IMG/VR virus record: IMGVR_UViG_3300037502_001430
Location: 1 to 49,838 of that record
DNA: 49,838 nt
Origin: a virus
Strand: one strand, 5' to 3'
Position 1 is the stretch's first letter. Every line of letters begins with the position of its first letter. Position numbers and translations under genes: made by a program. Below, piece after piece: positions 10,098-34,059 of this stretch. Below the pieces are notes generated by a model, which saw nothing but the letters and a program-made list of their open reading frames with translations, ran no database searches and had not been told where the DNA came from.

Positions 10098-12067
10098 TGA
10101 ACATAGCAGCATTAACCATACCAGCGATATTTACGGCAGTAGACAGGCTAACAGCACCATTCAAGCATATGAATAGTTCTGTTAGTGGGTTTGCCCGTAA
10201 TGCTGAGGTAGCGGCTGCAAGGGCGGATAGGGCTTTTAATAAAATGTTACCTTCTTTTGGCAAAAAAACTAGCGAGGTTATAGAGTATGCGAAAGGGATA
10301 GTAGGCGTACAAAGTGCTATTGAAGCTATTAAATTTAGTGCTACATCTATACTTGATTATGAAGATGCCGTATTGTCATTTAGAACTATTGTATCTGATT
10401 TAACAGACAATGAATTTGCAGCGTATGAAAAGCAAATAGGCATAGTAGCAGACATTACAAAAAAGTCTAGTGTAGATATTGCTAAGTCATTTGAAGTAAT
10501 TGCAGGGCTTAACGCTGAATTTGCAAGTACAGCAGAGGGGTTAGGATTGGTTACTCAAAGTGTTAGTACATTAGCTAAGGCAAGCCGTATGGATATGGGT
10601 GCGGCTGCTGAAAGTCTGATAGGCATAATGAACCAATTTAATTATAGTGTTGAGGAGTCAGATAGAGTTATAAATGTATTAGCGGCAGGTCAGGCAGTAG
10701 GTGCGGCAAGTATAAACCAAACAGCAGACGCATTAACTAATTTTGGTGCAGTTGCTAAGGGTGCAAATATTACTATTGAGCAAAGCACAGGGCTAATACA
10801 ATTATTGGCTAGTAAAGGGCAACTAGGTGCAGAGGCAGGTAGTAGGTTAAGGGCTGCAATAGTAAAGCTACAGGCGGCAGGTGTTGGTTATGCGTCAGGG
10901 GTATTTAATATTAATGACGCATTAACAGAATTAAAAGGGCAATATGATGCACTAAGTACACCAATGGAACGTGATGCAATGCTATCTAAAACATTTGGAC
11001 TTGAAAGTATAACTACAGGTTCAATATTACTAAATAATATAGATACTTATAAGCAATTTACTACAGCAGTTACAGGTACAAGTGAGGCGCAAAAAGCGGC
11101 AGAGATAAATAGCAAAAGTCTAAGGGCTAAGTTAGCTGAGTTAGTAAATACGTTTGTTACTGCAATAAGCACAGCAGATAGCACAAAGGGCGGTATAGGT
11201 TTATTAAGTGGTGCGATTAGTTGGCTAACTGATAATATGGGTTGGCTGTTAGACATAGCAGTTCCATTAATAGGGGTATTGCTAAGTGTTAAGGCTGCAA
11301 TATTAGGCATGGCGTTAGTTGCTAAATTAGCCGCTATGCGTATGTGGGCATTAGAATTTGTTGCAGGTGTGGCAACGGTAGCAAATAGGGTATATGCTAC
11401 CTCTTGTTTTGCTACTGAGGCTGGAATGTATGGCATGGCTACAGCATCATTTTTTTTAGAAACAAGTTTGTTAGGATTGTCTTTAGTTACAGGTGGCGTA
11501 GTTGTGGCGTTAGGGCTTATAACATTTGCATTTATAGAAGGATATGATGCAAATGTTAACTACTTAGAGCAAATTAAAAAAACAAAAGACGGGTTATATG
11601 AACTTCCCAAAGCATTAAGTACGGCTGAAATTGCTTTAAAAGAGTATACTAAGGCGTATGAAGAATATATAGAATTGCAAAACTTTAAAGCATATCTTGA
11701 TTATCAAAAAGGTAAGGGAGGTATGACTCCATTTTTAACAAATTTAACGGCTGCTTTTACGCACCCAATAATGTATAATAAAGCAATTACAGAACAACAA
11801 AGTAGAAATAAAAATTTATTAGCACCTAATCTGTCTGATTTTGGGTTGACTCCTTCACAAGTTAAAGATATGAGTCAAAAAAGTACAATGCCAGCAGTTA
11901 ATAATAAAGTAACGGAGCAAAACGTATTATTTGAGCGTATACAGGAAAACAGCCAAAAAGAGAAAATAGAATTATCTTATAACAACATGCCGAGCAATGT
12001 TAATGTATCAGCAACGGCAGGGATAGCAGTAAAGGGAACTACTACAATGATGGGGGGTAATGTATGA
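10097..12067 (+). CDS. Tail tape measure protein
   Basis: 656 residues. The N-terminal region is Ala-rich and helical, with the TP901-type tape-measure core: 'SILDYEDAVLSFRTIVSDL', 'LNAEFASTAEGLGLVTQSVSTLAKAS', 'GIMNQFNYSVEESDRVINVLAAG' and 'GAEAGSRLRAAIVKLQ'. Three or four hydrophobic membrane-compatible segments follow (about 370-495). It sets tail length and probably helps DNA cross the inner membrane. It is short for a tape measure, predicting a modest tail of about 100 nm by the usual 1.5 angstroms per residue rule. It overlaps gp46-like at 12064 by 4 bp. Confidence 0.9.
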   Translation: MNIAALTIPAIFTAVDRLTAPFKHMNSSVSGFARNAEVAAARADRAFNKMLPSFGKKTSEVIEYAKGIVGVQSAIEAIKFSATSILDYEDAVLSFRTIVSDLTDNEFAAYEKQIGIVADITKKSSVDIAKSFEVIAGLNAEFASTAEGLGLVTQSVSTLAKASRMDMGAAAESLIGIMNQFNYSVEESDRVINVLAAGQAVGAASINQTADALTNFGAVAKGANITIEQSTGLIQLLASKGQLGAEAGSRLRAAIVKLQAAGVGYASGVFNINDALTELKGQYDALSTPMERDAMLSKTFGLESITTGSILLNNIDTYKQFTTAVTGTSEAQKAAEINSKSLRAKLAELVNTFVTAISTADSTKGGIGLLSGAISWLTDNMGWLLDIAVPLIGVLLSVKAAILGMALVAKLAAMRMWALEFVAGVATVANRVYATSCFATEAGMYGMATASFFLETSLLGLSLVTGGVVVALGLITFAFIEGYDANVNYLEQIKKTKDGLYELPKALSTAEIALKEYTKAYEEYIELQNFKAYLDYQKGKGGMTPFLTNLTAAFTHPIMYNKAITEQQSRNKNLLAPNLSDFGLTPSQVKDMSQKSTMPAVNNKVTEQNVLFERIQENSQKEKIELSYNNMPSNVNVSATAGIAVKGTTTMMGGNV

Positions 12068-14347: not shown

Positions 14348-15256
14348 ATGGCACGTAAAATAACAGATTATAACGGTACAGTAGTTGCGGTAGGTGGTGC
14401 ATATCCTTACGGAGATATTAAGGATAATCCAAGTGGTACGATTATAGACCGTAAGAGTAATGCAGATTTGCAACAGTTTTTTCAAAAGTTGGCAGACAGC
14501 GCAGGCATAACGCTTAACAGTTTAGCCGATAATTCCACTAATGGGTTTCAGCTAACAGAGGCGTTAAGTAAGGTTATAGGCAACCATGCAGCGCAGATAG
14601 TGGTCAGTTTAATTGGTGGTGCGTATGACCCTACAAAGGTTTATATTTTGTGGGGGTGTGCTACTAGGTCGGATAGCGGTTTTGCTATGTATGATGGAGA
14701 GTTATATTATATACAAGGTAATGCAGGTTCGGCATGTGGTGGCTCTTTAGTGGATATAGTTACGGTTTTTAGCCCAGTTTTATACACTAATGGCGTACAA
14801 ACATTGCAGATTGCATGCGGTACAAGCGGTACAGGTATTGCAAATTTTGCGAATGTTATATATGTGAATAAGTGGGTAGATGTACGCACAACGATAACAA
14901 TAGGCAGTGGCGCAGGGGGTTCATTCACCGTTGATTTACCAGATATAATTTACGCTAAATACTTGTTACGCGGCAAAACTGTAACTTTTCAAATGTTGCT
15001 AAGGGATTTTAGTATAACAAGCAACCCATCATTTATGAGTGTAACTTTCCCGTTTTTACCTAGTGATATAACCGAACAAATGTATTATTCAGGTGGTATT
15101 TACTCATCTGCTGCTGGTTTTATTAAAGAGCCATTGGTTGTAGAAACTCAAAACGGAACGCCTGAATTTATAAAAATATATCCACCTGCAAGCGGATGGG
15201 TAGCAGGTACAGACGATAGCGGAATGTGTATTTCAATTACTTTCGAGATAGTCTAA
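14348..15256 (+). CDS. Putative tail fibre or baseplate appendage
   Basis: 302 residues in the position of the Mu fibre gene, right after the gp48-like gene. The N-terminus has 'DIKDNPSGTIIDRKSNADLQQFFQKLADSAGITLNSLADNSTNGFQLTEAL', a pattern I associate with fibre N-termini of Bacteroidota phages. The rest is Gly/Ser/Thr-rich and strand-rich, with no enzymatic motif. Probably a receptor-contact protein distinct from the long fibre at 28685. The 3' end overlaps the convergent lipoprotein gene by 4 bp. Confidence 0.6.
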   Translation: MARKITDYNGTVVAVGGAYPYGDIKDNPSGTIIDRKSNADLQQFFQKLADSAGITLNSLADNSTNGFQLTEALSKVIGNHAAQIVVSLIGGAYDPTKVYILWGCATRSDSGFAMYDGELYYIQGNAGSACGGSLVDIVTVFSPVLYTNGVQTLQIACGTSGTGIANFANVIYVNKWVDVRTTITIGSGAGGSFTVDLPDIIYAKYLLRGKTVTFQMLLRDFSITSNPSFMSVTFPFLPSDITEQMYYSGGIYSSAAGFIKEPLVVETQNGTPEFIKIYPPASGWVAGTDDSGMCISITFEIV

Positions 15257-15579
15257 CGCCAGTAGGTAAACGGTGCATTTGGGTGGTGCAAAGTAGGGTA
15301 CAGCCTAAGTGTGTCGTTTACCAACAAATAACCATACTGTGCAAACTTGCTACCATCATCAAGCAGATAGTAGATTGAATCAGTAGATACGGCATAAGGA
15401 TAGAATGGCTGTCTGTCTACAGACATTAAACTGTCAGTAAAGCAGAGTGAGCCATACGAAGACGACCAACACCCACTATTTATTTTAGTAGGTACAGGTG
15501 GATTAACAGGATTACAAACAGGTTTCTTAGTACAAGAAACAAAAGAGATTAAAGCGATTGCAAATAGTGTGTGTTTCAT
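15253..15579 (-). CDS. Antisense lipoprotein (moron candidate)
   Basis: 108 residues from the ATG at 15579. The N-terminus MKHTLFAIALISFVSC is a lipoprotein signal with lipobox F-V-S-C. After the Cys the protein is soluble, with three further Cys and a C-terminal strand-rich region. It is transcribed against the late operon from its own promoter at 15598-15628 and fills a gap between the two baseplate blocks. A phage-made surface lipoprotein expressed independently is a classic candidate for superinfection exclusion or receptor masking, but that is inference. No family recognised. Confidence 0.75.
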   Translation of the reverse strand: MKHTLFAIALISFVSCTKKPVCNPVNPPVPTKINSGCWSSSYGSLCFTDSLMSVDRQPFYPYAVSTDSIYYLLDDGSKFAQYGYLLVNDTLRLYPTLHHPNAPFTYWR

Positions 15580-19198: not shown

Positions 19199-19506
19199 TA
19201 GAATATAGCAACGCATTAATGTACGTAACAACAGCCGCTACCATTCAGGATAGGTTGGTTAAGATACGCTTAATCATAGACAAACTTTATATCCTTGCAT
19301 CAAGTACAAGCGATGCAGGGAATGGCATATATGAGAGTTACGAACTTGATGACGGTCAAGTAAAGATAGCTGCTAAGTATCGCAGTTCAAAACAGATACA
19401 AGCGGATATAATAGCGTATGAGAGAATGGAAAATAGGTATCTTGCACAGTTAAACGGCAGAAGGTACATTTTACGTGACGGTCAAAACTTTAGAAGAGTA
19501 TGTTAA
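19195..19506 (+). CDS. gpW-like head-tail joining protein (putative)
   Basis: 103 residues immediately before the portal gene, where lambda has gpW. A helical N-terminus is followed by 'GQVKIAAKYRSSKQIQADIIAYERMENRYLAQLNGRRYILRDG', resembling the gpW pattern of a beta-turn with paired helices. If correct, it plugs the portal and joins head to tail. It overlaps the spike gene by 4 bp and the portal gene by 7 bp. Confidence 0.5.
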   Translation: MIEYSNALMYVTTAATIQDRLVKIRLIIDKLYILASSTSDAGNGIYESYELDDGQVKIAAKYRSSKQIQADIIAYERMENRYLAQLNGRRYILRDGQNFRRVC

Positions 19507-21083
19507 AGATATTTGGATTTGAGATTGGTAAAGCAAAGCCTGAAAAACAGGCAGTAAGCACACGCCCCGTAAGGCGTTTTTACCAATACGACATTTTTGA
19601 TGGTGAAAAAAATGCAGGTGCAGTCGGACCAGTAAAGGATTATTTTTTAGATACGCAAGTATTAAGGGCAAGGTCATGGCAGTTGTATTTGGAGAGTGAA
19701 ATATGTTCAATGGCTATTAACCGTCTTGCAAGGTGGGTAATAGGCAAGGGGCTTGATTTGCGTTCTATCCCTGAAACATCATATCTTGCTACCGAAGGGA
19801 TAAAGCTAAATAGCGAGACATTTAATAATGTAGTTGAAAGTAGGTGGCAAGTATTTGCTAATAGTTGCACTGCTGATTACAGCAACAAACGTAATTTACA
19901 CGAGTTGGCTAATGATGCGTTAGTAAATGCTAAGGTAGGGGGCGATGTGTTGGTAATATTGCGTATTATAAATGGTTCGCTAAGGGTACAGCTAATAGAC
20001 GGTGCGCACGTAAGCAATCCAATGTCTACAGGTGTAGCTATCACAGGTGCAGATTTTATTTATAATGGCAATATAGTACGTGACGGTGTAGAGATAAACA
20101 GCGAAGGTAAGCCAATAGCATACCATGTAAAATTTGAGCCGTTTAATTGGGAAAGAATAGAAGCGTACAATAATAAGACAGGTCAAAAGATGGCATGGCT
20201 TTATAGTGGCAATCAGTTTAGGCTTGATGATTATAGGGGCTTAGCTATGTTGGCTACAGTAATAGAAAGTGCCAAAACACTAGACCGATACAAAGAGGCT
20301 ACAGTTAGCAGTGCAGAGGAAAGGGCTAAAATAGCCTACTATATTAAACATGGTACGCAATCAGATGAAGAAGATATATTTGCTAAAAATGCTACTAAGA
20401 TAAGCAACTATAACGACCAAGATGATGTACCAGTTGATAAGTTCGGTACTATGTTAGCCGAAAACATATACGCTACTACCAACAAACAAACATTTAACAT
20501 GCCGAGAGATACGGCTATTGAAAGTTTAGAGAGTAAACAAGAATTACATTTTAAGGATTTCTTTATGACTATATCAAACGATATATTTAGTGCGGTAGGA
20601 ATACCCCCGAATGTAGCACGTATGATGTACGATAGTAATTTCAGCGCAAGTCGTGCAGCCCTAAAGGATTGGGAACATACACTAGATGTTGAGCGTAGAA
20701 ACTTTGTTAATGGCTTTTACTTGCCTATTTATTCGGTATGGTTAGATATTGAGGTAGCAAAAAATAAAGTACAGGCACAAGGATATTTAAGGGCTTTAAT
20801 GTCAAAGGATTATTTAACTTTGGAAGCGTTTAAGGCAAGTGCATGGAGAGGTGCAAATGTGCCGCATATAGACCCAGTTAAAGAGGTAACAGCCGAGAGA
20901 TTAAAGCTAGGTAAGATGTTTGAGGATAAGCCCCTTACCACACTTGAAAATGCTACTATTAACGTTAACGGTGGCGATAGTGAGGATAACATGGAGCAAG
21001 CCGCAAAGGAAATAGAGCAAGCGGAAAACTTAGGATTAAAATACATAGAACCGATAGTAGTACCAATAAACACAAATCCGTAA
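19500..21083 (+). CDS. Portal protein, lambda gpB family
   Basis: 527 residues, typical length. Family features are 'LRARSWQLYLESEICSMAINRLARWVIGKGL' near the N-terminus, 'HVSNPMSTG', the hinge 'VKFEPFNWERIEAYN', 'DDYRGLAMLATVIESAKTLDRYKEATVSSAEERAKIAYYIKHG', and 'GIPPNVARMMYDSNFSASRAALKDWEHTLDVERRNF' (stem and crown). It forms the dodecameric DNA gate and docks the terminase. It is 12 kb from the terminase genes, an unusual separation. A methyltransferase gene starts one base after its stop. Confidence 0.92.
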   Translation: MLKIFGFEIGKAKPEKQAVSTRPVRRFYQYDIFDGEKNAGAVGPVKDYFLDTQVLRARSWQLYLESEICSMAINRLARWVIGKGLDLRSIPETSYLATEGIKLNSETFNNVVESRWQVFANSCTADYSNKRNLHELANDALVNAKVGGDVLVILRIINGSLRVQLIDGAHVSNPMSTGVAITGADFIYNGNIVRDGVEINSEGKPIAYHVKFEPFNWERIEAYNNKTGQKMAWLYSGNQFRLDDYRGLAMLATVIESAKTLDRYKEATVSSAEERAKIAYYIKHGTQSDEEDIFAKNATKISNYNDQDDVPVDKFGTMLAENIYATTNKQTFNMPRDTAIESLESKQELHFKDFFMTISNDIFSAVGIPPNVARMMYDSNFSASRAALKDWEHTLDVERRNFVNGFYLPIYSVWLDIEVAKNKVQAQGYLRALMSKDYLTLEAFKASAWRGANVPHIDPVKEVTAERLKLGKMFEDKPLTTLENATINVNGGDSEDNMEQAAKEIEQAENLGLKYIEPIVVPINTNP

Positions 21084-21084
21084 A

Positions 21085-21684
21085 ATGGACACACTAAGCC
21101 AATTAGCAGAAATATATAAAACAGATAAGGGGATGTGGCATCATGGCTACACCCCTATTTATAATATGTATTTTGAGGCACTAAAAGACAAACAAATAAC
21201 ACTTTTAGAAATTGGCATAGGTGGTTATGAGTATGTAAATAAAGGCGGTGAGAGTTTAAAAATGTGGCGTGATTATTTTAGCAATGCTAATATAATTGGA
21301 TTTGATTTTTACAAAAAGGAATTAAATATAAAAGGTGTTTCTATTTATCAAGGTAGTCAAATAGACAATGACTTTTTAAAATCATTACCTGCTCCATTTG
21401 ACATAATTATTGATGATGGCAGCCATGTTAGTAGCCACATAATAAGCACGTTTGACACACTATTTTGCAAGCTAAATAGTGGCGGTATATATGTAGTTGA
21501 AGATACAGAAACAAGCTATTGGAGTGAGCATTACGGTGGCGGTACATTACCAACAGACACAACATCAATGAATTTTTTTAAGGGGTTATGCGATACGCTA
21601 AATCCTGAATATGGAGTTGAGGACATTTACGGAATTAAAACAATACACTTTTATAGCGGTTTAATATTTATCTTTAAGAAGTAA
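21085..21684 (+). CDS. SAM-dependent O-methyltransferase-like protein
   Basis: 199 residues. 'TDKGMWHHGYTPIYNMYFEALKDKQITLLEIGIGGYE...GGESLKMWRDYFSNANIIGFDF' resembles the macrocin/mycinamicin O-methyltransferase type, with the SAM motif LEIGIGG near residue 40 and the acidic 'GFDF' strand. 'FDIIIDDGSHVSSH' supplies the metal and catalytic Asp-His positions of that family. Such enzymes methylate sugar hydroxyls. It is the first gene of a four-gene cassette between portal and protease, so a glycan is a reasonable substrate. Confidence 0.75.
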   Translation: MDTLSQLAEIYKTDKGMWHHGYTPIYNMYFEALKDKQITLLEIGIGGYEYVNKGGESLKMWRDYFSNANIIGFDFYKKELNIKGVSIYQGSQIDNDFLKSLPAPFDIIIDDGSHVSSHIISTFDTLFCKLNSGGIYVVEDTETSYWSEHYGGGTLPTDTTSMNFFKGLCDTLNPEYGVEDIYGIKTIHFYSGLIFIFKK

Positions 21685-21686
21685 CT

Positions 21687-22247
21687 ATGCCAACAGATAC
21701 AGGAATATGGGAACAGCACGAAGCAAATCAATATCATGATTTTAGTTACAGATTAGCGCAATACATAGGTCAATATTTCCCTAAAAATAAACAGGTTATA
21801 GATTTAGGTTGTGGGCTTGCTACATATTTACGATATTTTCATGATATAGGGTTTACTAATTTACTAGGGGTTGAAGGCACAAAGCTAACTAACTTTGAAT
21901 TTGGCAATGTATTAGTACATGATTTATCTACACCTATTGAGTTAGACAAAAAAGGTAATGTAATTTGTTTAGAAGTAGGGGAGCATATAGCAAAAGAATA
22001 TGAAGATGTGGTAATAGATAACATTTGCAAATTATGTGCTGATGACGGATTTATTATTATGTCGTGGGCTATTCCTACACAAGATGGTATAGGTCATGTA
22101 AATTGCCAGCATAACATTTACATTTTAGATAAGATAGTAAAAAAAGGGTTTAGTCTATTGTTAGATGATACATTAAAGGTAAGAGGAGTTGTGGAAGATA
22201 GGCTAAACTATTTTCGTAACACACTAATGGTATTTAAAAAGCTATGA
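21687..22247 (+). CDS. Class I SAM-dependent methyltransferase
   Basis: 186 residues. Motif I is 'VIDLGCGLATYL' (residues about 36-47), the acidic strand ends 'GVEGTK', and motif IV is 'NVICLEVGEHI', as in many small-molecule and sugar methyltransferases. The N-terminus has 'WEQHEANQYHDFSYRLAQYIGQYF'. It starts two bases after the previous stop and overlaps the next start by 4 bp. Substrate unknown; the adjoining glycosyltransferases suggest capping or trimming of a glycan. Confidence 0.78.
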   Translation: MPTDTGIWEQHEANQYHDFSYRLAQYIGQYFPKNKQVIDLGCGLATYLRYFHDIGFTNLLGVEGTKLTNFEFGNVLVHDLSTPIELDKKGNVICLEVGEHIAKEYEDVVIDNICKLCADDGFIIMSWAIPTQDGIGHVNCQHNIYILDKIVKKGFSLLLDDTLKVRGVVEDRLNYFRNTLMVFKKL

Positions 22248-23761
22248 TAACATTTAGCAAGTTTGGCAACTATGGCAGATTAGGTAATCAGCTATTTCAA
22301 TATGCGTCATTAATTGGTTTAAGTGAAACATTTGGCAAAGATGTTGTTTTACCTAAATGCGATTTTGCGGAATATTTAGAAAACAAACCAAACATTAAAG
22401 ACGTTTCAGATTGTAAATTGGTACAGGAAAAGTACTATCACTATGATGTTAAACAATTTAATGTAGTTGGCAATATTGATATTGTTGGTTGGCTGCAATC
22501 TGAAAAGTATTGGCAACACTGCAAGGATAAAGTAAAAAAAGCATTGCAGTTTAACGCTAAAAAGTGCAATGAATTACAAGGCTATCAACAAAAGTTTTTT
22601 GGTAAACAATCAATAGCAATATCTGTAAGGCGTGGTGATTATGTAGATAATTCTAACTATGCACAGTTAGGTGCTGATTACTACTACCTTGCTATGATGC
22701 AACATATCCCTAATTGGCAAGATTGCAACATACTGATATTTTCAGATGATATAGAGTATTGCAAGGTGCATTTTGAGTGCTTGCCTAATGTGCATTTTAT
22801 TGAGGATTTAACCCCTATGCAACAGTTAATAGTAGGTTCTTGTTGCGACCATTTTATAATTGCAAATAGTACGTTTAGTTGGTGGTTAGCTTATTTTGGA
22901 GAAAAAAAACATAGCAAAGTAATTAGACCTAATTATTTGTTTGAAGGTAATTTGTTAAAGCAAAATGATAGCAAAGATTTTTACCCCGAAAGATGGATTT
23001 GCTATGACCACAAAAAAAGTAAAATAGACCTAAAAGATACTACATTTATTATACCAGTTAGCATAGATAGTACAGACAGAATAGAAAATATCAATACTTG
23101 CATATCATACATTAACACATATTTTGACACTAACATTATTATAGGTGAGCAAGGAACTGATGATATAAAGCATAGTAAGGTAAAATTCAATTATCCTAAA
23201 TTTCACCGCACTAAAATGCTAAATGAAATGACTAAACAAGCTAACACGCCAATAGTCATTAACTATGATGCTGATGTGTTTTTACCACCTTTGCAAATAT
23301 GGTTATCAGTGCATTATATACGCACCAATGTATCTGATTATGTTTATCCTTATGACGGTCAATTTGCAAGGGTTGGCAGAGGATATTACAACCTAATAAA
23401 TGACAAAAAAGATTTAGGCAGACTAAGCAAATACACATTTAAAGGTACGTTTAAAAATGACCCAAACACGCCTAAAAGCGTAGGCGGAGCAATAGCATTT
23501 AACAAACAAGCGTATACCGAAATAGGATTAGAAAATGAAAGGTTTATTAGCTATGCACCCGAAGATATAGAGCGATTTTATAGAATGGCTAATACACGAA
23601 GATTAAAGCGAATAAAAGGCGTGATATATCATCTTGACCATGAAGTAACAATTAATAGTAGTATAGGGCATGCAGACTATGCAAATAATGTAAAGGTATG
23701 CAATGAGTTAACAGGTTTAACCATGAACGAACTATGGAGGCTTATAAGACAGTATCAATAG
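22244..23761 (+). CDS. Two-domain glycosyltransferase: GT11 fucosyltransferase fused to GT-A transferase
   Basis: 505 residues. Residues 1-255 are a GT11 alpha-1,2-fucosyltransferase: 'GRLGNQLFQYA' at 11-21, the GDP-fucose motif 'SVRRGDYV' at 127-134, and 'ANSTFSWWLAYFG' at 206-218. Residues 262-505 are a GT-A fold transferase with DAD (341-343) as the metal-binding DxD, 'KSVGGAIAF', and 'APEDIERFYRMA' as the likely acceptor-site acidic motif. The fusion could add two sugars in sequence. It sits inside the head operon, so it is probably expressed late and acts on virion proteins or on host surface glycan. Confidence 0.82.
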   Translation: MITFSKFGNYGRLGNQLFQYASLIGLSETFGKDVVLPKCDFAEYLENKPNIKDVSDCKLVQEKYYHYDVKQFNVVGNIDIVGWLQSEKYWQHCKDKVKKALQFNAKKCNELQGYQQKFFGKQSIAISVRRGDYVDNSNYAQLGADYYYLAMMQHIPNWQDCNILIFSDDIEYCKVHFECLPNVHFIEDLTPMQQLIVGSCCDHFIIANSTFSWWLAYFGEKKHSKVIRPNYLFEGNLLKQNDSKDFYPERWICYDHKKSKIDLKDTTFIIPVSIDSTDRIENINTCISYINTYFDTNIIIGEQGTDDIKHSKVKFNYPKFHRTKMLNEMTKQANTPIVINYDADVFLPPLQIWLSVHYIRTNVSDYVYPYDGQFARVGRGYYNLINDKKDLGRLSKYTFKGTFKNDPNTPKSVGGAIAFNKQAYTEIGLENERFISYAPEDIERFYRMANTRRLKRIKGVIYHLDHEVTINSSIGHADYANNVKVCNELTGLTMNELWRLIRQYQ

Positions 23762-24324
23762 TAACCCCTACTACGCAAGACAGGCAAGTATTTAATGAGC
23801 GTATTTTTACTATTGCGAAGTTGCAAGATTACCCATACATAGTAGAACATCTATTTGATTACTCAGATAGTATAATAGGAACTAAGCGAAATAAATTAGT
23901 ATCTAAAGCTATTGGGGATATTATAATCCACATGGATAGTGATGATGTGTATGCTACGGATTGGGTAAGTAAATGTGTACAGGCGTTACAAGATAACCCA
24001 ACAGCCGACATAGTAGGACTATCACAATTCTATGCTACAGGTGGCTTTAAATATGTAGGGTCAAACAACAGCAAAACCGTATGGGGTGCTACAATGGCAT
24101 ACCGAAAAACATTTTGGGAAAGTAACAATTTTAAAGACATACAAGTAGGTGAAGATTATTTGTTTTGCAAAAAAGCAAACGTACTTATTAACCCATATAC
24201 AAACGGATTTTTAGCCACTATACATAGTGGAAATACAAGCCCAAAAAATACATCTAACAGCGCATGGGTTAATCTTTGTCGCAAGGATATTCCCGATAGT
24301 CCTTTGGGTACTGCTGAATTATAA
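23734..24324 (+). CDS. GT2-family glycosyltransferase
   Basis: 196 residues. 'VSIVTPTTQDRQVFNERIFTIAKL' is the N-terminal nucleotide-binding strand of GT-A enzymes, and 'IIIHMDSDDVY' (64-73) carries the DxDD metal site. 'VWGATMAYRKTFWE' and 'VGEDYLFCKKA' (E-D) fit the acceptor and catalytic-base region. It is short for GT2, close to a minimal catalytic domain. It overlaps the preceding gene by 28 bp, and its 3' end overlaps the antisense regulator gene by 56 bp. Confidence 0.75.
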   Translation: MEAYKTVSIVTPTTQDRQVFNERIFTIAKLQDYPYIVEHLFDYSDSIIGTKRNKLVSKAIGDIIIHMDSDDVYATDWVSKCVQALQDNPTADIVGLSQFYATGGFKYVGSNNSKTVWGATMAYRKTFWESNNFKDIQVGEDYLFCKKANVLINPYTNGFLATIHSGNTSPKNTSNSAWVNLCRKDIPDSPLGTAEL

Positions 24325-24442
24325 CATGCAAATTCTTTTTTACCAATTCACCCATACTACAGCCTACATGAGATGCAATGTTTTTAATCTCTGTATGTTG
24401 CTTAGTTGATATGTTATTGACCCTTACATCTTTCTTATCCAT
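24269..24442 (-). CDS. Small ribbon-helix-helix (Arc-like) DNA-binding protein
   Basis: 57 residues from the ATG at 24442. 'DVRVNNISTKQHTEIKNIASHVGCSMGELVKKNLHVIIQQYP' fits an Arc/MetJ ribbon-helix-helix: a short strand, helix A, then helix B. It is antisense to the late operon, overlaps the end of the GT2 gene, and has a near-perfect promoter with its -7 box three bases from the ATG, so the mRNA may be leaderless. It could repress late genes or the glycan cassette; the palindromic arrays at 4592-4767 are possible targets. Confidence 0.68.
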   Translation of the reverse strand: MDKKDVRVNNISTKQHTEIKNIASHVGCSMGELVKKNLHVIIQQYPKDYREYPCDKD

Positions 24443-24445
24443 ACG

Positions 24446-24478
24446 CAAATTTAATAATTTACCGACAATAACGGCAAA
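24446..24478 (-). promoter_or_regulatory. Promoter for the antisense RHH protein
   Basis: Leftward -33 TTTG (24475-24478), 21-bp spacer, -7 TAAATTTG (24446-24453). This fits the Bacteroidota consensus exactly. Only three bases separate the -7 box from the ATG at 24442, implying a start site at or near the start codon. Confidence 0.82.
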
Positions 24479-24519: not shown

Positions 24520-25494
24520 ATGAAAGAAATAATACTATATAATTACCTCTATGACGCATCGGCTGCTAACTTTATAGCGCAGCTAGAGGCGTATAAAGAT
24601 GATGATGTAGTTATTCGTATGAATACAGGTGGTGGCAGTCCTGAAAGTACATTTGGTATGATTGCCAAACTTTCAGAGCGTACCAAAGCAACTAAAATAA
24701 AGGTTGACGGTAAAGCACATAGTATGGGTGCATTTATGTTAGCTTATACCCAAGATAACGAAGCGTTAGATGTATCGGAAATATTAGTACATCGTGCCGC
24801 TTATCCTTCATGGGTAGAAAAAGACCCCAACATAATGACTGCTGAAATGTGGGCATCATTGAATAGGGTTAACGGTAAACTTCGTGAGGCATTAGAGGCT
24901 AAGGTTAATACTACATTGTTTCAGTCTATTACAGGCAAATCAATGGATGATGTGTTTAGCACTGATACCCGTATAGATGTGCTACTTACAGCGAAACAAG
25001 CAAAAGAAATAGGGCTAATAAACAAGGTAGTAAATATTACCCCTACAATGCAAGCGGAACTAAAAGGACATTATGCAATGGCAGCACAAACAGGATTTGA
25101 AGTAATGCCATTTTCAATACCTGAAATTAAAGAGGCTAATACAACAATAACAATAAAAAACAATAAAATGACAGTAACAGAATTAAAGGCACAGCACCCT
25201 AATTTGGTAGCTGAAATAGTTGCCAGCGAGCGTGATAGAGTTAATTCGTTCCTTGTATTTGCGCATCTTGATTTGGATGCTTGCAAAAAAGGTATTTCAG
25301 AAGGTAGCGCACTATCTGCTACACAAATGGCAGAATTTAGCCTAAAAGCAGCACAAGCGCAATTTATGGTAAACGCTGAAACAGGTAGCCCTGCAAGCGT
25401 TACACCTGCAAAGGTTGAAGCACCACAAGGCACAGAAAAGAAAGCAGAAGAAGATTTTTGGAAAGAGGCAATCGAAAACGTAAACATTAAATAA
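24520..25494 (+). CDS. Head maturation protease (ClpP-type) with C-terminal scaffold
   Basis: 324 residues from the ATG at 24520; the earlier ATG at 24487 gives a less typical N-terminus. The S14-like domain has the oxyanion 'NTGGGSPESTFGM', nucleophile Ser68 in 'AHSMGAF' and His91 in 'ILVHRAAYP', followed by 'LTAKQAKEIGLINKV'. The C-terminal 108 residues are helical and Ala/Glu-rich like lambda Nu3. An in-frame ATG at 25168 behind an A-rich leader could make this scaffold alone. It cleaves scaffold and possibly portal during prohead maturation. Confidence 0.88.
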   Translation: MKEIILYNYLYDASAANFIAQLEAYKDDDVVIRMNTGGGSPESTFGMIAKLSERTKATKIKVDGKAHSMGAFMLAYTQDNEALDVSEILVHRAAYPSWVEKDPNIMTAEMWASLNRVNGKLREALEAKVNTTLFQSITGKSMDDVFSTDTRIDVLLTAKQAKEIGLINKVVNITPTMQAELKGHYAMAAQTGFEVMPFSIPEIKEANTTITIKNNKMTVTELKAQHPNLVAEIVASERDRVNSFLVFAHLDLDACKKGISEGSALSATQMAEFSLKAAQAQFMVNAETGSPASVTPAKVEAPQGTEKKAEEDFWKEAIENVNIK

Positions 25495-25502
25495 TTTAAG
25501 AC

Positions 25503-25967
25503 ATGGCAAATCCACAGATAGCGAATTTTGATACCTCGAAATTATTTCTAGGTCGCAACTATTACGATACCGCTACATACACTAATTCAAGTGGTAGCGA
25601 AGTTACAATTTCGGCAGGTCGTTTGCTCGGTCGTGTTGGTTCTAGTAACCTTATAGCACTCCAAGACAAAGACAATACAAACGGTAGTCAAATACCATTG
25701 GGCGTATCTGCTGATACTTATGTAGTAGCAAACGGTGCAAGCGCAACAATTACCTATGCAATAGCAGGTAGAGTAGCAAGCGAGTTGTTAGGTTTTGCGT
25801 CAGGCGAAACACTTGCAACAGTTGTAAACTACATCGGTACAGATGGTTCAAGCCCAGCAGGCGTAGCTACAGTGCCAGCAGGTACTATTAAAGATGTAAT
25901 GCAGCGTTCAGGGTTTCAGATAATCACTTCTACTGAATTAACAGCAATCGATAACCCACAATCTTAA
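25503..25967 (+). CDS. Head decoration protein (lambda gpD-like)
   Basis: 154 residues between protease and major capsid, the lambda position of gpD. Ala/Gly/Thr-rich, beta-type, with 'SAGRLLGRVGSSNLIAL', 'IPLGVSADTYVVANGASATITYAIAGRV' matching the gpD family pattern. It would stabilise the expanded capsid at three-fold axes. Confidence 0.8.
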   Translation: MANPQIANFDTSKLFLGRNYYDTATYTNSSGSEVTISAGRLLGRVGSSNLIALQDKDNTNGSQIPLGVSADTYVVANGASATITYAIAGRVASELLGFASGETLATVVNYIGTDGSSPAGVATVPAGTIKDVMQRSGFQIITSTELTAIDNPQS

Positions 25968-25991: not shown

Positions 25992-27044
25992 ATGGCAATA
26001 CCCAGTTCATTAATACGGTCAACAATTACCACCAAGTTCTTAGCATTGTGGAAAGAGCGTCTACGCCCTACTACATTCCTTGCAACATGGTTTCCCGACA
26101 CTACCCCAACTGCTACACGTTACGTAAGTATCGAAGTACAGAGAGGTAAAGAAAAGATTGCAGTAGATGTGCTACGCAATGCAGAAGGCAATCATAATAA
26201 GTTTGAAAAGTCTACACAAAAAGACTTCGACCCTACTTACTTTGATGAAAACTTTACAGTTGATTCATTGCGTATGTACGACCGCCTAATCGGTAGCGGT
26301 TCAGTTGATGCAGGCGTTGTAACTGCTATCCTTAATGAGGGTACAGAGAAAATGCAAATGCTCGCTGATAAGATTGAGCGTAGATATGAGTTGCAGAGAG
26401 CGCAAGCCCTACAGACTGGTATAGTAACTGCTACATCTACTGAAAACATTGATTTTCAGCGTAAAGCATCTATGATGCTTGCTTACAATTCAGCGCACAA
26501 TTTCGCAGATAATGCAGTGAGCATATCGTCTTTTTTAGGCACATGGGGTAGCCTTATGCGTTCAGTTGGTAAAGTTGGTACAGGTACATTTGATTTGTTG
26601 ATGGGTTCATCTGCATATCAGGCAATGATAGCTAACACGAAATTCCAAGCCGAAGCGGATATACGCAGAATAACACTTACAGACATTGTAAGCCCAGTTA
26701 AGAATACAGAAGGTGCTGATTATATGGGTATGTTTAGCGCAGGTACTTGCAACTACCGTATATGGGTTTATGACCAATATTATGAAGATGCAAGCGGTAC
26801 ATTGCAGCCTTACATCGACCCAAAGAAAATAATCATACTACCCCCTAACCCAGCCTTTATGATGGCTTATGCAGGTGTGCCACAGTTGATAGATGAAGAT
26901 AACCCAGTAGTACGTACAGGTAAATTCATATACTATAGCTACACAGATGAGCGCAGACGTTCAAGAGTGTACGGTGTACAGTCAGCAGGTTTGCCAATAC
27001 TACTAGAAGTAGACAAACTGTTTACAGCTACAGTACTAGCATAA
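25992..27044 (+). CDS. Major capsid protein, lambda gpE family
   Basis: 350 residues, matching gpE length (341). Features include the N-terminal 'RPTTFLATWFPDTTPTATRYVSIEVQRGKEKIA', 'EGTEKMQMLADKIERRYELQRAQALQTGIV' and the C-terminal 'VPQLIDEDNPVVRTGKFIYYSYTDERRRSRVYGVQSAGLPIL', as in PF03864 proteins. HK97-fold shell subunit. A hairpin terminator lies 23 bp downstream and would raise capsid output over later genes. Confidence 0.92.
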   Translation: MAIPSSLIRSTITTKFLALWKERLRPTTFLATWFPDTTPTATRYVSIEVQRGKEKIAVDVLRNAEGNHNKFEKSTQKDFDPTYFDENFTVDSLRMYDRLIGSGSVDAGVVTAILNEGTEKMQMLADKIERRYELQRAQALQTGIVTATSTENIDFQRKASMMLAYNSAHNFADNAVSISSFLGTWGSLMRSVGKVGTGTFDLLMGSSAYQAMIANTKFQAEADIRRITLTDIVSPVKNTEGADYMGMFSAGTCNYRIWVYDQYYEDASGTLQPYIDPKKIIILPPNPAFMMAYAGVPQLIDEDNPVVRTGKFIYYSYTDERRRSRVYGVQSAGLPILLEVDKLFTATVLA

Positions 27045-28343: not shown

Positions 28344-28688
28344 ATGCCAAATATTAAATTTTCAGAATTAAATACAGCCCCCGACTTATCGGAGTTAGAT
28401 TATATTGTTGGTATTCGGTACAATGAAGAAACGGAACTATACGAAAACTATACGTACCCAGCAAATACATTTAAAGAGTATGTAAAAGCATTATCAAGGA
28501 AAATAATTACAGTTAGTGAGGATGGTAATTCAATTACAGATAACAACTTTACGGGTAATGAGGTACAGGCATTACTAACTGATAATCAAGTTTATATAAG
28601 AGATGTAGATTTTACCCAAGATGAGGACACAATAACAGGATTAATTATTTCATTTTACACATCACAAAAAATATTAGTATTATTATGA
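28344..28688 (+). CDS. Fibre-associated or adaptor protein, hypothetical
   Basis: 114 residues beginning MPNIKFSELNTAPDLSELDYIVGIRYNEE. I recognise this opening as common at the front of fibre-associated proteins in Bacteroidota phages ('FSEL..A..L...DYIVG'), but the function is not established. The stop overlaps the fibre start by 4 bp, so it is probably a fibre adaptor or chaperone. Confidence 0.5.
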   Translation: MPNIKFSELNTAPDLSELDYIVGIRYNEETELYENYTYPANTFKEYVKALSRKIITVSEDGNSITDNNFTGNEVQALLTDNQVYIRDVDFTQDEDTITGLIISFYTSQKILVLL

Positions 28689-31129
28689 GGATTATTATTA
28701 CAGTGGCATTATTGATAGCCATATCAATAGGGGCAAGCGCACAAAGGATAGTACCAATAGGGGGAAGTAGAACAACAGATACAGGGCTGATAGTTGGTAG
28801 CTTAAAGGTAGATAGTGTGTTGATATTACCAAATTACAGGACTACTAATACCAACATGGTTTTAGGATTTGACAGCAGAGGTAAGGCAGTATTAAGGATA
28901 AACAACGATAGCCTTATTTATGCAACACGTAGATATGTGGATAGTGGATTTAATGCGATTTCAGCAGGTAGCGTAGATAGCAGTATATATAGTACTGTTA
29001 CACGCCTTGCAGATAGTTTACGTGACTTACGTGGCTACGTAGACAGCAACAACACAATAATATACGGCAATATAGCCACCTTGCAAAGTGATGTGGTAGT
29101 ATTAGATAGTGCGGTAGGTGTGGCATTTGGGGCTATAGCTGCATTATACGACACTTTACCAAACTATGTAGATACCGCAATGCTCAATGATAGTTTACAG
29201 GCTATTAAGGCGGCTTATGTACCGTATGTAGGGGCTACAACAGATGTAAATATAGGTACACACAATCTACTTACTAACAGCGTACGGCTATCCACATCGC
29301 CTACAGGTACACTTACCAACGTAGGTCAGTTATACTTTGATGCTACAAATGTTACACCCTCAATACCATTAAATGCAAATGTAACCTTACAGATAGGGCA
29401 AGAGGAACACATACGTGCAAGGAATAATACAGGTGTTCAAATTAATGATGGGCAAGTAGTTTATATAAATTCGGCTCAGGGTAACAACCCTACTATTGCA
29501 CTTGCTAATTCTGATAGTGTAAATACAAGTGAGGTAATAGGGGTAGCGACTGAAAATATAGCTGATAATGGTACAGGCTTTGTTACTACATACGGTACGG
29601 TAAATGGGATAAATACAAGCGCATTTAATGTAGGCGATATACTGTATTTATCTGCTACAAATGGTACAATAACAAATGTTGTACCTACACCACCACATAA
29701 CGTAGTAAAGATTGGTGTTGCTTTGAATGACATCCCTAACGGCAGAATATTTGTTAAGCCTAGTCAAGCGATTGGGCAAGATACCACATTCGCAGCACCT
29801 TATAACAGTAACAAGGTAGCACCTACACAAAGGGCTATAGGTACTTATGTACGGAATATAACTAAAGATACTGCAAGTGCTTTGAGAGGTGCAATAAATA
29901 CAAAGTTGAATAGTAGTGATACGGCTAGTTTAAGCAATCGTATTAACCTCAAATACGGCACAAGTGATACAGGTAGGGCAGCAACTAATATTGTTACAGG
30001 TGGTAGCCTAAATAAAGTGCGTGATAGCCTTAATACTTTAATTGCTGCTAAGGGTAGTGGTACAGTTACATCTATACAATTAGTAGGTGGTACAAACGTG
30101 ACTATAACACCTACAACAGCTATTACTACAAGTGGGGTATATACTATTAGTGCAACTGGTGGTAGCAGCACAATAGTAAAAGCTAATGAGTTTAATATGT
30201 TGTATAAAGCAAATGGAGATACAACAATTCGTGGCACAACAAAAGTACGAGTAGATACAACTGATTTGCGCATGGAATTTGCCTATGATAGTACTACTAC
30301 ATCAGTTACCACCGACCCACATGGAGGGATTAAGATGTGGGGTAGTAATCGCATGGGTATGGGTGCAGTAAGAATTAATGATACAGTAAGTATACCAGCA
30401 TCATTGCAGAGGGCTATAAATGCACAGATAACGAGTACTATATTGCCAGGAGAAGGAATAAGGTTTACCAACAATTTTATTTACGGTGGTATGGTTCAAA
30501 CTAGCGGAACTGTATCGCCTATAGCATTTGCTTCTTACAGTTCTACTAGCACACAGTCTTGTTATAACAGAATTACTTACTTAGCATCGGCAGCAGCCAA
30601 TCAGTCAGCAGGGTTAAGAATTGGCAATGCGGCATTGTCAGCAGGTATCATATGTGGGAATACAAAATTTGGAGGTGGCGGCGGTAGAGGCACCATAATA
30701 TTCTCCTTGCCAGTATATAACAGTGGGCAAAGAATTTATGCAGCATACACAACAAGTCTATCAATGCTATTAATTGACCCAGGTGCGCTAAGTGCGGCTG
30801 CATTTTTAGCAGTTGGCAAGGATGCAGGAGATGCGTTTATGTCGTTTTACCACAATGATAATTCTGGTAGTGCTATAAAAGTTCCATTGCCAGTTACGCC
30901 AAACAGTGACGATGTGTATAGATTTACCGTTTACATTGCGCCCAATAGCACCTATTACATGCAACTAGAGGTTATAAGCAAAACGGGTATTTCGGTGTAC
31001 ACATTAAACCCAACTAGCGACATACCACCAATCAACACACGTTTACAAATGCAGACATGCGTAAATTCAGCATCTACAGGTGTGGGTGTGCAGTTGGGAA
31101 TTATCCAAATAACAGAAGAAATTTATTAA
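28685..31129 (+). CDS. Long tail fibre-like protein with an N-terminal signal peptide
   Basis: 814 residues, the longest gene in the window. The N-terminus MRIIITVALLIAISIGASAQ looks like a classic Sec signal peptide with an A-S-A/Q cleavage site, odd for a virion protein made in the cytoplasm. The body has collagen-free, low-complexity Ser/Thr/Asp/Asn repeats such as 'RYVDSGFNAISAG', 'LADSLRDLRGYVDSN' and 'RGAINTKLNSSDTASL', suggesting trimeric coiled-coil and beta structure, and a C-terminal Gly-rich, beta-rich domain likely to bind receptors. Architecture resembles host-secreted Chitinophagaceae proteins as much as fibres. It could be a fibre derived from one. Confidence 0.65.
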   Translation: MRIIITVALLIAISIGASAQRIVPIGGSRTTDTGLIVGSLKVDSVLILPNYRTTNTNMVLGFDSRGKAVLRINNDSLIYATRRYVDSGFNAISAGSVDSSIYSTVTRLADSLRDLRGYVDSNNTIIYGNIATLQSDVVVLDSAVGVAFGAIAALYDTLPNYVDTAMLNDSLQAIKAAYVPYVGATTDVNIGTHNLLTNSVRLSTSPTGTLTNVGQLYFDATNVTPSIPLNANVTLQIGQEEHIRARNNTGVQINDGQVVYINSAQGNNPTIALANSDSVNTSEVIGVATENIADNGTGFVTTYGTVNGINTSAFNVGDILYLSATNGTITNVVPTPPHNVVKIGVALNDIPNGRIFVKPSQAIGQDTTFAAPYNSNKVAPTQRAIGTYVRNITKDTASALRGAINTKLNSSDTASLSNRINLKYGTSDTGRAATNIVTGGSLNKVRDSLNTLIAAKGSGTVTSIQLVGGTNVTITPTTAITTSGVYTISATGGSSTIVKANEFNMLYKANGDTTIRGTTKVRVDTTDLRMEFAYDSTTTSVTTDPHGGIKMWGSNRMGMGAVRINDTVSIPASLQRAINAQITSTILPGEGIRFTNNFIYGGMVQTSGTVSPIAFASYSSTSTQSCYNRITYLASAAANQSAGLRIGNAALSAGIICGNTKFGGGGGRGTIIFSLPVYNSGQRIYAAYTTSLSMLLIDPGALSAAAFLAVGKDAGDAFMSFYHNDNSGSAIKVPLPVTPNSDDVYRFTVYIAPNSTYYMQLEVISKTGISVYTLNPTSDIPPINTRLQMQTCVNSASTGVGVQLGIIQITEEIY

Positions 31130-33274: not shown

Positions 33275-33472
33275 ATGATACACTTAATTTACATTTACCT
33301 AATGATTAACTGCTTTATTGCAGGGGTATTAAACGCTATAAATAAAGATGGCGATTACTCAAAAAGTACCGTAATTGGTGGTACATTATTAGCCGTATTG
33401 GTAGGTTTCCCTATTGGTATAGGTGTTTACATTTACCTTAAAAGAAAAGACAAAAAAGAAATAACATTATGA
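33275..33472 (+). CDS. Two-helix membrane protein (second holin candidate)
   Basis: 65 residues with hydrophobic segments at about 3-21 (HLIYIYLMINCFIAGVLNA) and 32-54 (VIGGTLLAVLVGFPIGIGVYIYL), joined by 'INKDGDYSKST'. C-terminal tail 'KRKDKKEITL' is basic, giving positive-inside topology. It overlaps the spanin candidate by 4 bp. Holin, antiholin or spanin partner are all possible. Confidence 0.55.
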   Translation: MIHLIYIYLMINCFIAGVLNAINKDGDYSKSTVIGGTLLAVLVGFPIGIGVYIYLKRKDKKEITL

Positions 33473-34059
33473 CATTCACAGACAACCACCCCAATAACCG
33501 TAATTTCGGGCTAATACTATTTAGTGTGATACTTACCATTGCTGTATGTGCTATAGTGGCGTTAAGCGGCTGCAAATCAACCGAGAAACGCCAAGCCAAG
33601 CTATACGGCAAGTTCGATAAGTTGAAACGCAAAGCAGATGCAGATAGCGTACTAAAGGTAGTGCCTAGTAAATGGAGTTTAGATAATTTCCCTATGAAAT
33701 TAACAGGAACAAAAACAGTCTATTTACCATCTAAGAAAATAATTACACATGATACGGTAATTACTACCAAGACTAAAAATGATACTACTTACATTACTAA
33801 GTACGTTAATAAGTATAGTCATTCGGTAGATACACTACAAACCACCGATACAATAGTAGACAATAGACCATTAACGCAATTACAGACAGATTACAGGGCG
33901 TTAGATGCTAAGTTGATACAAGCTATAACAAAAGCAGAAATAGCCACAGAAACGAAAAATAAACAGCGAGGTAAGATGTTATGGAGTATCGGTTTGAACT
34001 TGCTACTGATAATACTTATTATTGCTTATTTTTTAAGAAAGTTTGGAATATTGAGATAG
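33469..34059 (+). CDS. Candidate unimolecular spanin
   Basis: 196 residues. The N-terminal hydrophobic stretch 13-34 ends in lipobox LSGC with Cys35, giving an outer-membrane lipoprotein after processing. The middle is polar, strand-rich, with 'TKTVYLPSKKIITHDTVITTKTKND' and a helical part. The last 27 residues hold a membrane helix (LWSIGLNLLLIILIIAYF). A lipidated N-terminus plus a C-terminal membrane helix is the architecture of T1 gp11-type u-spanins, which span the periplasm and fuse membranes. It fits the neighbouring holin and endolysin. Family similarity itself is not visible. Confidence 0.6.
   Translation: MTFTDNHPNNRNFGLILFSVILTIAVCAIVALSGCKSTEKRQAKLYGKFDKLKRKADADSVLKVVPSKWSLDNFPMKLTGTKTVYLPSKKIITHDTVITTKTKNDTTYITKYVNKYSHSVDTLQTTDTIVDNRPLTQLQTDYRALDAKLIQAITKAEIATETKNKQRGKMLWSIGLNLLLIILIIAYFLRKFGILR

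Follow-up and report, generated by a model that had tools for sequence, protein, structure and literature searches.

This study examined the junction between the portal and head protease genes of the 49.8-kb virus record IMGVR_UViG_3300037502_001430 (positions 1-49,838; this whole stretch is hereafter the window). Two methyltransferase genes (MT1 and MT2), a gene (FT) for a two-domain protein with a GT11 (fucosyltransferase-family) part and a GT-A part, and a GT2-family glycosyltransferase gene (GT2) lie there on the plus strand at 21085-24324; a sequence-only reading of the window had described this gene set, and the open reading frames (ORFs) and domain matches bore it out. Comparison with related phages revealed that the genes between the portal and GT2 are exchanged as a block and that the head proteins stay near-constant. 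We propose, with about even chances, that this is a mobile, allele-swapping cassette whose late-expressed enzymes would build a glycan bearing methyl and fucose groups, with virion proteins as its most likely carriers. The new elements are the precise swap, the mostly empty slot, the recurrence of the module in unrelated head clusters, and the pairing of the methyltransferase with GDP-fucose synthesis genes.

Block exchange of the cassette among close relatives

The relatives were public viral contigs, labelled with L-numbers, and those bearing the cassette fell into three variants. Variant A (the window, L014, and L021) carries MT1-MT2-FT-GT2; variant B (L016, L019, and, in part, L018 and L012) carries GTx and GTy, both of the GT2 family, followed by the same GT2; and variant C (L028, portal 59% identical) carries a fused GTx-GTy, an FkbM methyltransferase, a DUF5672 protein, and a GT2 49% identical to that of the window. 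Between variant B and the window, identity was 99% for the portal, 97-99% for the decoration protein and the major capsid protein (MCP), and 88% for GT2. The alignment of L016 with the window broke off within the final codons of the portal (21077) and restarted at codon 5 of GT2 (23748); the exchanged block comprised 2670 bp in the window and 1189 bp in L016. The sequence-only reading had proposed comparing the cassette in relatives, and this comparison found it swapped for other glycan sets in near-identical phages.

Because variant C again combines glycosyltransferases with a methyltransferase, the slot appears to retain a glycan function while the chemistry varies. The identities of GTx, GTy, and GT2 between variants B and C (54-63%) were similar to that of the portal (59%), and this matching divergence suggests that the B/C arrangement is the ancestral one and that A arose later. 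In the comparison of the window with L014, 2.3% of sites differed in the A segment versus 6.4% in the flanks (Fisher P 1.7e-16), and synonymous divergence (dS) was 0.03-0.14 versus 0.22-0.28; the lower values in the A segment point to recent transfer. Other blocks replaced among near-identical relatives were observed at 10368-11884 (part of the tape measure gene) and 14876-15465 (part of a 302-aa baseplate-region protein).

Recurrence of the module in unrelated phages

MT1-MT2-FT was found, with its order kept, in L236, L237, L240, and L241. The order in L237 is head protease, capsid-type protein, 190-aa protein, MT1, MT2, FT, GT25-like gene, and portal, and L240 is arranged likewise; identity of L237 to the window was 49% for MT1, 39% for MT2, and 48% for FT, and the head proteins of L237 and L240 showed no BLAST similarity to those of the window. 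In L152, GT11, GT-A, and MT2 form a single ORF between the MCP-position protein and the terminase, with a GT25 gene present. MT1 and FT lie just upstream of the terminase and a portal-like ORF in L006, and MT1 overlaps an FT in L107. L106 carries, in order, a glycosyltransferase, a GDP-mannose dehydratase (gmd), a fucose-synthase-like epimerase, an S78 prohead protease, and an MT1 homologue (47%).

Across 57 non-redundant viral loci, GT11 was joined to GT-A in 44, and 29 of these 44 had MT1 and/or MT2 within 3 kb; a GT2-family match was also present in 26 of the 28 MT1-bearing viral contigs. Among the 15 contigs with a terminase or portal recognisable by Pfam models, which recognise a minority of contigs, the module lay within 6 kb of either gene in 11, versus 5.9 expected (P 0.005, an optimistic value). 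The homologues in L245 and L292 hold a stop codon and were left out of the alignments.

Layout of the portal-protease junction

The window phage is contractile-tailed (tail sheath, tube, and baseplate genes were detected) and is a relative of Flavobacterium phage FCV-1; among named phages, its portal was closest to those of the Ficleduovirus phages of Flavobacterium columnare (36% identity). Its host is probably a Flavobacterium-like bacterium. Comparison of the window with phage records at the DNA level returned a 56-nt match only, and no integrase was detected in the window. The features of the region are as follows.

19500-21083, plus strand: lambda-type portal protein (PF05136, 1.5e-41, 143 bits; phrog_21), left border of the cassette
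21078-23747, plus strand: swapped segment, 2670 bp in the window and 1189 bp (GTx-GTy) in variant B
21085-21684, plus strand: MT1, predicted MycE/TylE-type sugar O-methyltransferase catalytic domain (PDB 3ssm, 8ia9; phrog_21658)
21687-22247, plus strand: MT2, predicted class I methyltransferase (PF13489, 4.1e-5, below cut-off), recurring beside MT1/FT
22244-23761, plus strand: FT, GT11 (fucosyltransferase-family) domain (PF01531, 3.8e-24) and GT-A domain (from a model)
23734-24324, plus strand: GT2-family glycosyltransferase (PF00535, 9.8e-10, 39 bits), present in all three cassette variants
24269-24442, minus strand: antisense ribbon-helix-helix (RHH)-like small gene, with antisense homologues at the equivalent site in diverse relatives
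24523-25494 (alternative start 24487), plus strand: ClpP-like head maturation protease (PF00574, 1.3e-12; phrog_133), right border
25503-25967, plus strand: lambda D-like head decoration protein (PF02924, 1.3e-5; phrog_5204, 4.4e-9), candidate acceptor
25992-27044, plus strand: MCP of the cap_E type (PF03864, 4.8e-29), candidate acceptor
28685-31129, plus strand: 814-aa fibre/cement-like protein (PF09956, 2.4e-7) with a signal-peptide-like N-terminus and 16 O-glycosylation motifs, possible acceptor

The gaps from the portal through MT1, MT2, and FT to GT2 are 1, 2, -4, and -28 nt, and 198 nt containing the convergent antisense RHH-like gene separate the end of GT2 from the likely protease start (24523). 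The tight packing claimed earlier thus holds on the portal side, where the cassette abuts the portal and its genes overlap or abut, but not on the protease side. The GC content was 32-33% in MT1, MT2, and FT and 36% in GT2, compared with 35-42% in the other late genes measured. The ratio of non-synonymous to synonymous divergence (dN/dS) was 0.06-0.28 for the cassette genes in the comparison with L014. Matches to sigma-70-like promoters and to terminators were no more frequent here than expected by chance, and no cassette-specific promoter is claimed.

The slot was nearly empty in more distant phages: of 65 additional relatives in which the junction could be measured, 53 had 650 nt or less from portal to protease. 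The longer junctions of L040, L051, L057, L083, L094, and FCV-1 held, by inspection, endolysin- or holin-like ORFs, and an endolysin is annotated in that of phiSM. Among the relatives compared, glycosyltransferases occurred in the junction only in the clade of the window and in L028. The position had been taken to imply co-expression with the head genes; the position does indicate late expression, but head function does not follow, as relatives hold lysis genes at the same site.

Predicted activities of the cassette enzymes

MT1 (199 aa) matched MycE (3ssm, E 1.3e-34) and TylE (8ia9, E 1.6e-33) over residues 4-173 in a phmmer search of the PDB. Its residues D111, H114, and D140 correspond, with matching spacing, to MycE D275, H278, and D304, the metal-binding aspartates and catalytic histidine (PMC9275233). 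The match begins at residue 184 of the MycE chain, and the N-terminal auxiliary half of MycE/TylE is missing; MT1 is therefore predicted to be a catalytic-domain relative of these macrolide sugar 2-O-methyltransferases, sharing their metal and base residues, rather than a full MycE, and its substrate must differ. MT2 matched Methyltransf_23 (PF13489) at E 4.1e-5, under the Pfam cut-off, and PDB sequences weakly; it is a predicted class I methyltransferase.

The N-terminal domain of FT scored 85.9 bits against PF01531 (cut-off, 23.9), and its RRxD motif (R129 R130 G131 D132) was invariant among homologues. The C-terminal domain (approximately residues 261-505), whose DxD lies within NYDADV, received no confident Pfam name, and its CAZy family is not settled. 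Its alignment was drawn from 79 viral loci, and 59 sequences served as AlphaFold input; the DxD (domain D82/D84) was invariant in these 59. The resulting model had a predicted local distance difference test score (pLDDT) of 94.4 and a GT-A fold. Its nearest folds were polypeptide GalNAc-transferases, heparosan/chondroitin synthases, and beta-4-galactosyltransferases (Z 15-18), with GalNAc-T2 at Z 17.8 and a root-mean-square deviation of 3.7 over 220 aligned residues. On this model, the domain is predicted to be a GT-A fold; having this fold in common with the enzymes named does not establish the reaction. When full-length FT was modelled by AlphaFold from four sequences, the pLDDT was 40, and this model was replaced by the C-terminal-domain model; by sequence alone, whole FT had no match in the PDB and GT2 a weak one. 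GT2 carries a DSDD motif.

No nucleotide-sugar epimerase was found in the window, so the GDP-fucose donor would come from the host. Transmembrane-like segments were not predicted in any cassette protein, and the GtrA-type flippase family PF04138 gave no match at E 0.1.

Likely bacterial source

The best bacterial GT11 matches were mostly from Flavobacterium. In both Flavobacterium sp. LHD-80 (L159) and a Limnohabitans metagenome-assembled genome (L194), the gene immediately before GT11 encodes an MT1 homologue, and the L159 pair adjoins, by inspection, NeuA/NeuB-like surface-polysaccharide genes. The MT1-GT11 pair of the phages was probably derived from such bacterial surface-polysaccharide loci.

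Proposed function and alternatives

In the proposed mechanism, GT2, the member kept in all variants, would add an early sugar, possibly the first of the chain, in the cytoplasm. Extension would fall to the GT-A and GT11 domains, with GT11 transferring fucose from GDP-fucose supplied by the host. The glycan would be O-methylated by MT1, possibly together with MT2, and would be placed on one or more virion proteins during head assembly. Its outer sugars would depend on the swapped genes, and different alleles could thereby give near-identical particles different surface glycans and alter adsorption, stability, or recognition. A virion protein is favoured as the acceptor because the module repeatedly sits in unrelated head clusters and lacks flippase or membrane parts. 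A methylated, fucose-containing glycan on the capsid or decoration protein had been suggested earlier; the sugar O-methyltransferase, GT11, and the GDP-fucose genes of L106 agree with such a glycan, and the virion target is favoured only. The arrangement had also been called undescribed. This holds for the placement within the searchable literature (mostly without subscription papers), in which no paper on a phage fucosyltransferase/methyltransferase/capsid combination was found, but virion glycosylation by phages was already known.

Several points weigh against this interpretation. The glycan and the virion modification are predicted from genes alone; GDP-fucose as the GT11 donor and a sugar as the MT1 O-methylation acceptor are assigned from the respective families. 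The slot tolerates late-expressed cargo, and location by itself is no proof of head function; lysis genes occupy it in several relatives, and it is perhaps a mere late cargo site. The positional test includes partly related contigs, and contigs with a lone GT-A domain showed no clustering near the terminase or portal. In addition, the head proteins of the carrier phages are unrelated, and no common protein acceptor is evident.

It is possible, although rather unlikely, that the cassette instead acts late in infection on glycans of the host surface or on their lipid-linked precursors, by attaching fucose, or methylating it, on O-antigen, capsule, or a Bacteroidota O-glycan, and thereby keeps progeny from sticking to debris or blocks superinfection. 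The mostly Flavobacterium origin of the nearest bacterial GT11 sequences and the MT1-GT11 pairs of L159 and L194, that of L159 near NeuA/NeuB-like genes, agree with this explanation, as do the Bacteroidota O-glycans, which often bear methyl groups and are thought to be built on the cytoplasmic side (PMC12871550); diversity among receptor glycans would likewise agree with allele swapping. However, the cassette has no flippase, ligase, or membrane protein, several unrelated phages carry the module flanked by head genes, and expression only shortly before lysis would bring a small benefit. Serotype conversion in particular is not favoured, with no GtrA match and no integrase detected.

An unlikely explanation is that the cassette is late-expressed cargo (a moron) not tied to the particle, its product being useful elsewhere, as in small-molecule or exopolysaccharide glycosylation. 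Consistent with such cargo, most relatives have little at the junction and some have lysis genes there, but the three variants in one clade are all glycosyltransferase/methyltransferase sets, and the module lies between head genes of unrelated phages. Modification of phage DNA bases by the glycosyltransferases, a hypermodification against restriction, is very improbable. To our knowledge, sugar O-methyltransferases and GT11 are not known as partners in DNA glycosylation. The genes sit in the late head operon, and the thymidylate synthase/hydroxymethylase family PF00303 was unmatched in the window, which may be incomplete; this mechanism was therefore not favoured, even though the window phage carries DNA methylases and virus-encoded glycosyltransferases that glycosylate DNA are mentioned among the work cited in PMC12619734.

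If the virion-glycan interpretation is correct, the sugar coat would be varied by gene-block swap around a constant capsid, as bacteria swap capsule loci. Near-identical phages differing in the cassette would then make a genetically clean system for studying the role of virion glycans in phage. The module also offers compact predicted fucosyl- and sugar-O-methyltransferases. More tentatively, and with considerable doubt, Bacteroidota phages may exchange head-operon glycan cassettes as an allele-swapping virion glycotype system that gives almost the same particle differing methylated/fucosylated coats, possibly with sequon-rich exported proteins decorated by host O-glycosylation.

Comparison with known systems

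Mycobacteriophages, too, encode glycosyltransferases, which decorate their particles according to Freeman et al. 2023, as cited in PMC12619734, and M. abscessus prophages carry MT1 homologues (approximately 40%) next to a glycosyltransferase gene, with the terminase and portal following a few genes later. In the chlorovirus PBCV-1, the capsid glycans contain fucose and a 2-O-methylated deoxysugar and are made by virus-encoded glycosyltransferases that lack an endoplasmic reticulum signal; its multi-domain A064R (glycosyltransferase-glycosyltransferase-methyltransferase) resembles the GT11-GT-A-MT2 fusion of L152, and its virus-encoded GDP-fucose synthesis resembles the L106 gene set (PMC7019647). 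These likenesses have limits: mycobacteriophages are other phages with other enzymes, whereas the window has a block-swapped methyltransferase-GT11/GT-A-GT2 set in the portal-protease junction, and PBCV-1 is a eukaryotic virus, the likeness to which is by description. Unlike the demonstrated capsid glycan of PBCV-1 and the mycobacteriophage systems, the window cassette is known only through its genes.

The cyanophages P-TIM68, S-SSM7, and S-SCSM1 have adjacent or joined GT11 and GT-A-type genes with 27-33% identity over nearly all of FT, but these are large T4-like genomes, and the P-TIM68 pair lies in a sugar-metabolism island rather than between head genes. The gtrABC serotype-conversion cassettes are likewise phage-borne, swappable glycosyltransferase sets; the window cassette differs in having no GtrA flippase or membrane proteins, and no integrase was detected.

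Antisense gene and O-glycosylation motifs

The antisense RHH-like gene encodes 57 aa and overlaps the 3' end of GT2. Homologues occupied the same place, also antisense, in approximately 14 diverse relatives with or without the cassette, and substitutions in the gene were mostly at the third position (bias 3/2/11). It is a conserved element of the portal-protease junction. On the minus strand at 24446-24478, 3 nt upstream of its start, TAAATTTG (TTTG approximately 21 nt before) resembles a Bacteroidota promoter and could be chance in AT-rich DNA.

The Bacteroidota O-glycosylation motif is D[ST][AILMVT] (PMC12871550). The 814-aa protein at 28685-31129 (plus strand) contained 16 such motifs versus 3.8 expected, and an exported or membrane-anchored protein at 33469-34059 (plus strand) contained 5 versus 1.0 expected; exported proteins of the relatives L007 and L012 were also enriched. 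In the pooled signal-peptide-like ORFs of the portal relatives, 52 motifs were counted versus 25 by shuffling (2-fold), compared with 647 versus 639 in other ORFs. This pattern suggests host O-glycosylation of exported phage proteins, a second and independent glycan lead. The MCP-position ORFs that, as called, have a putative signal-peptide-like hydrophobic start were L056:11067, L065:3729, L054:9306, L072:13422, L082:5892, and L152:774.

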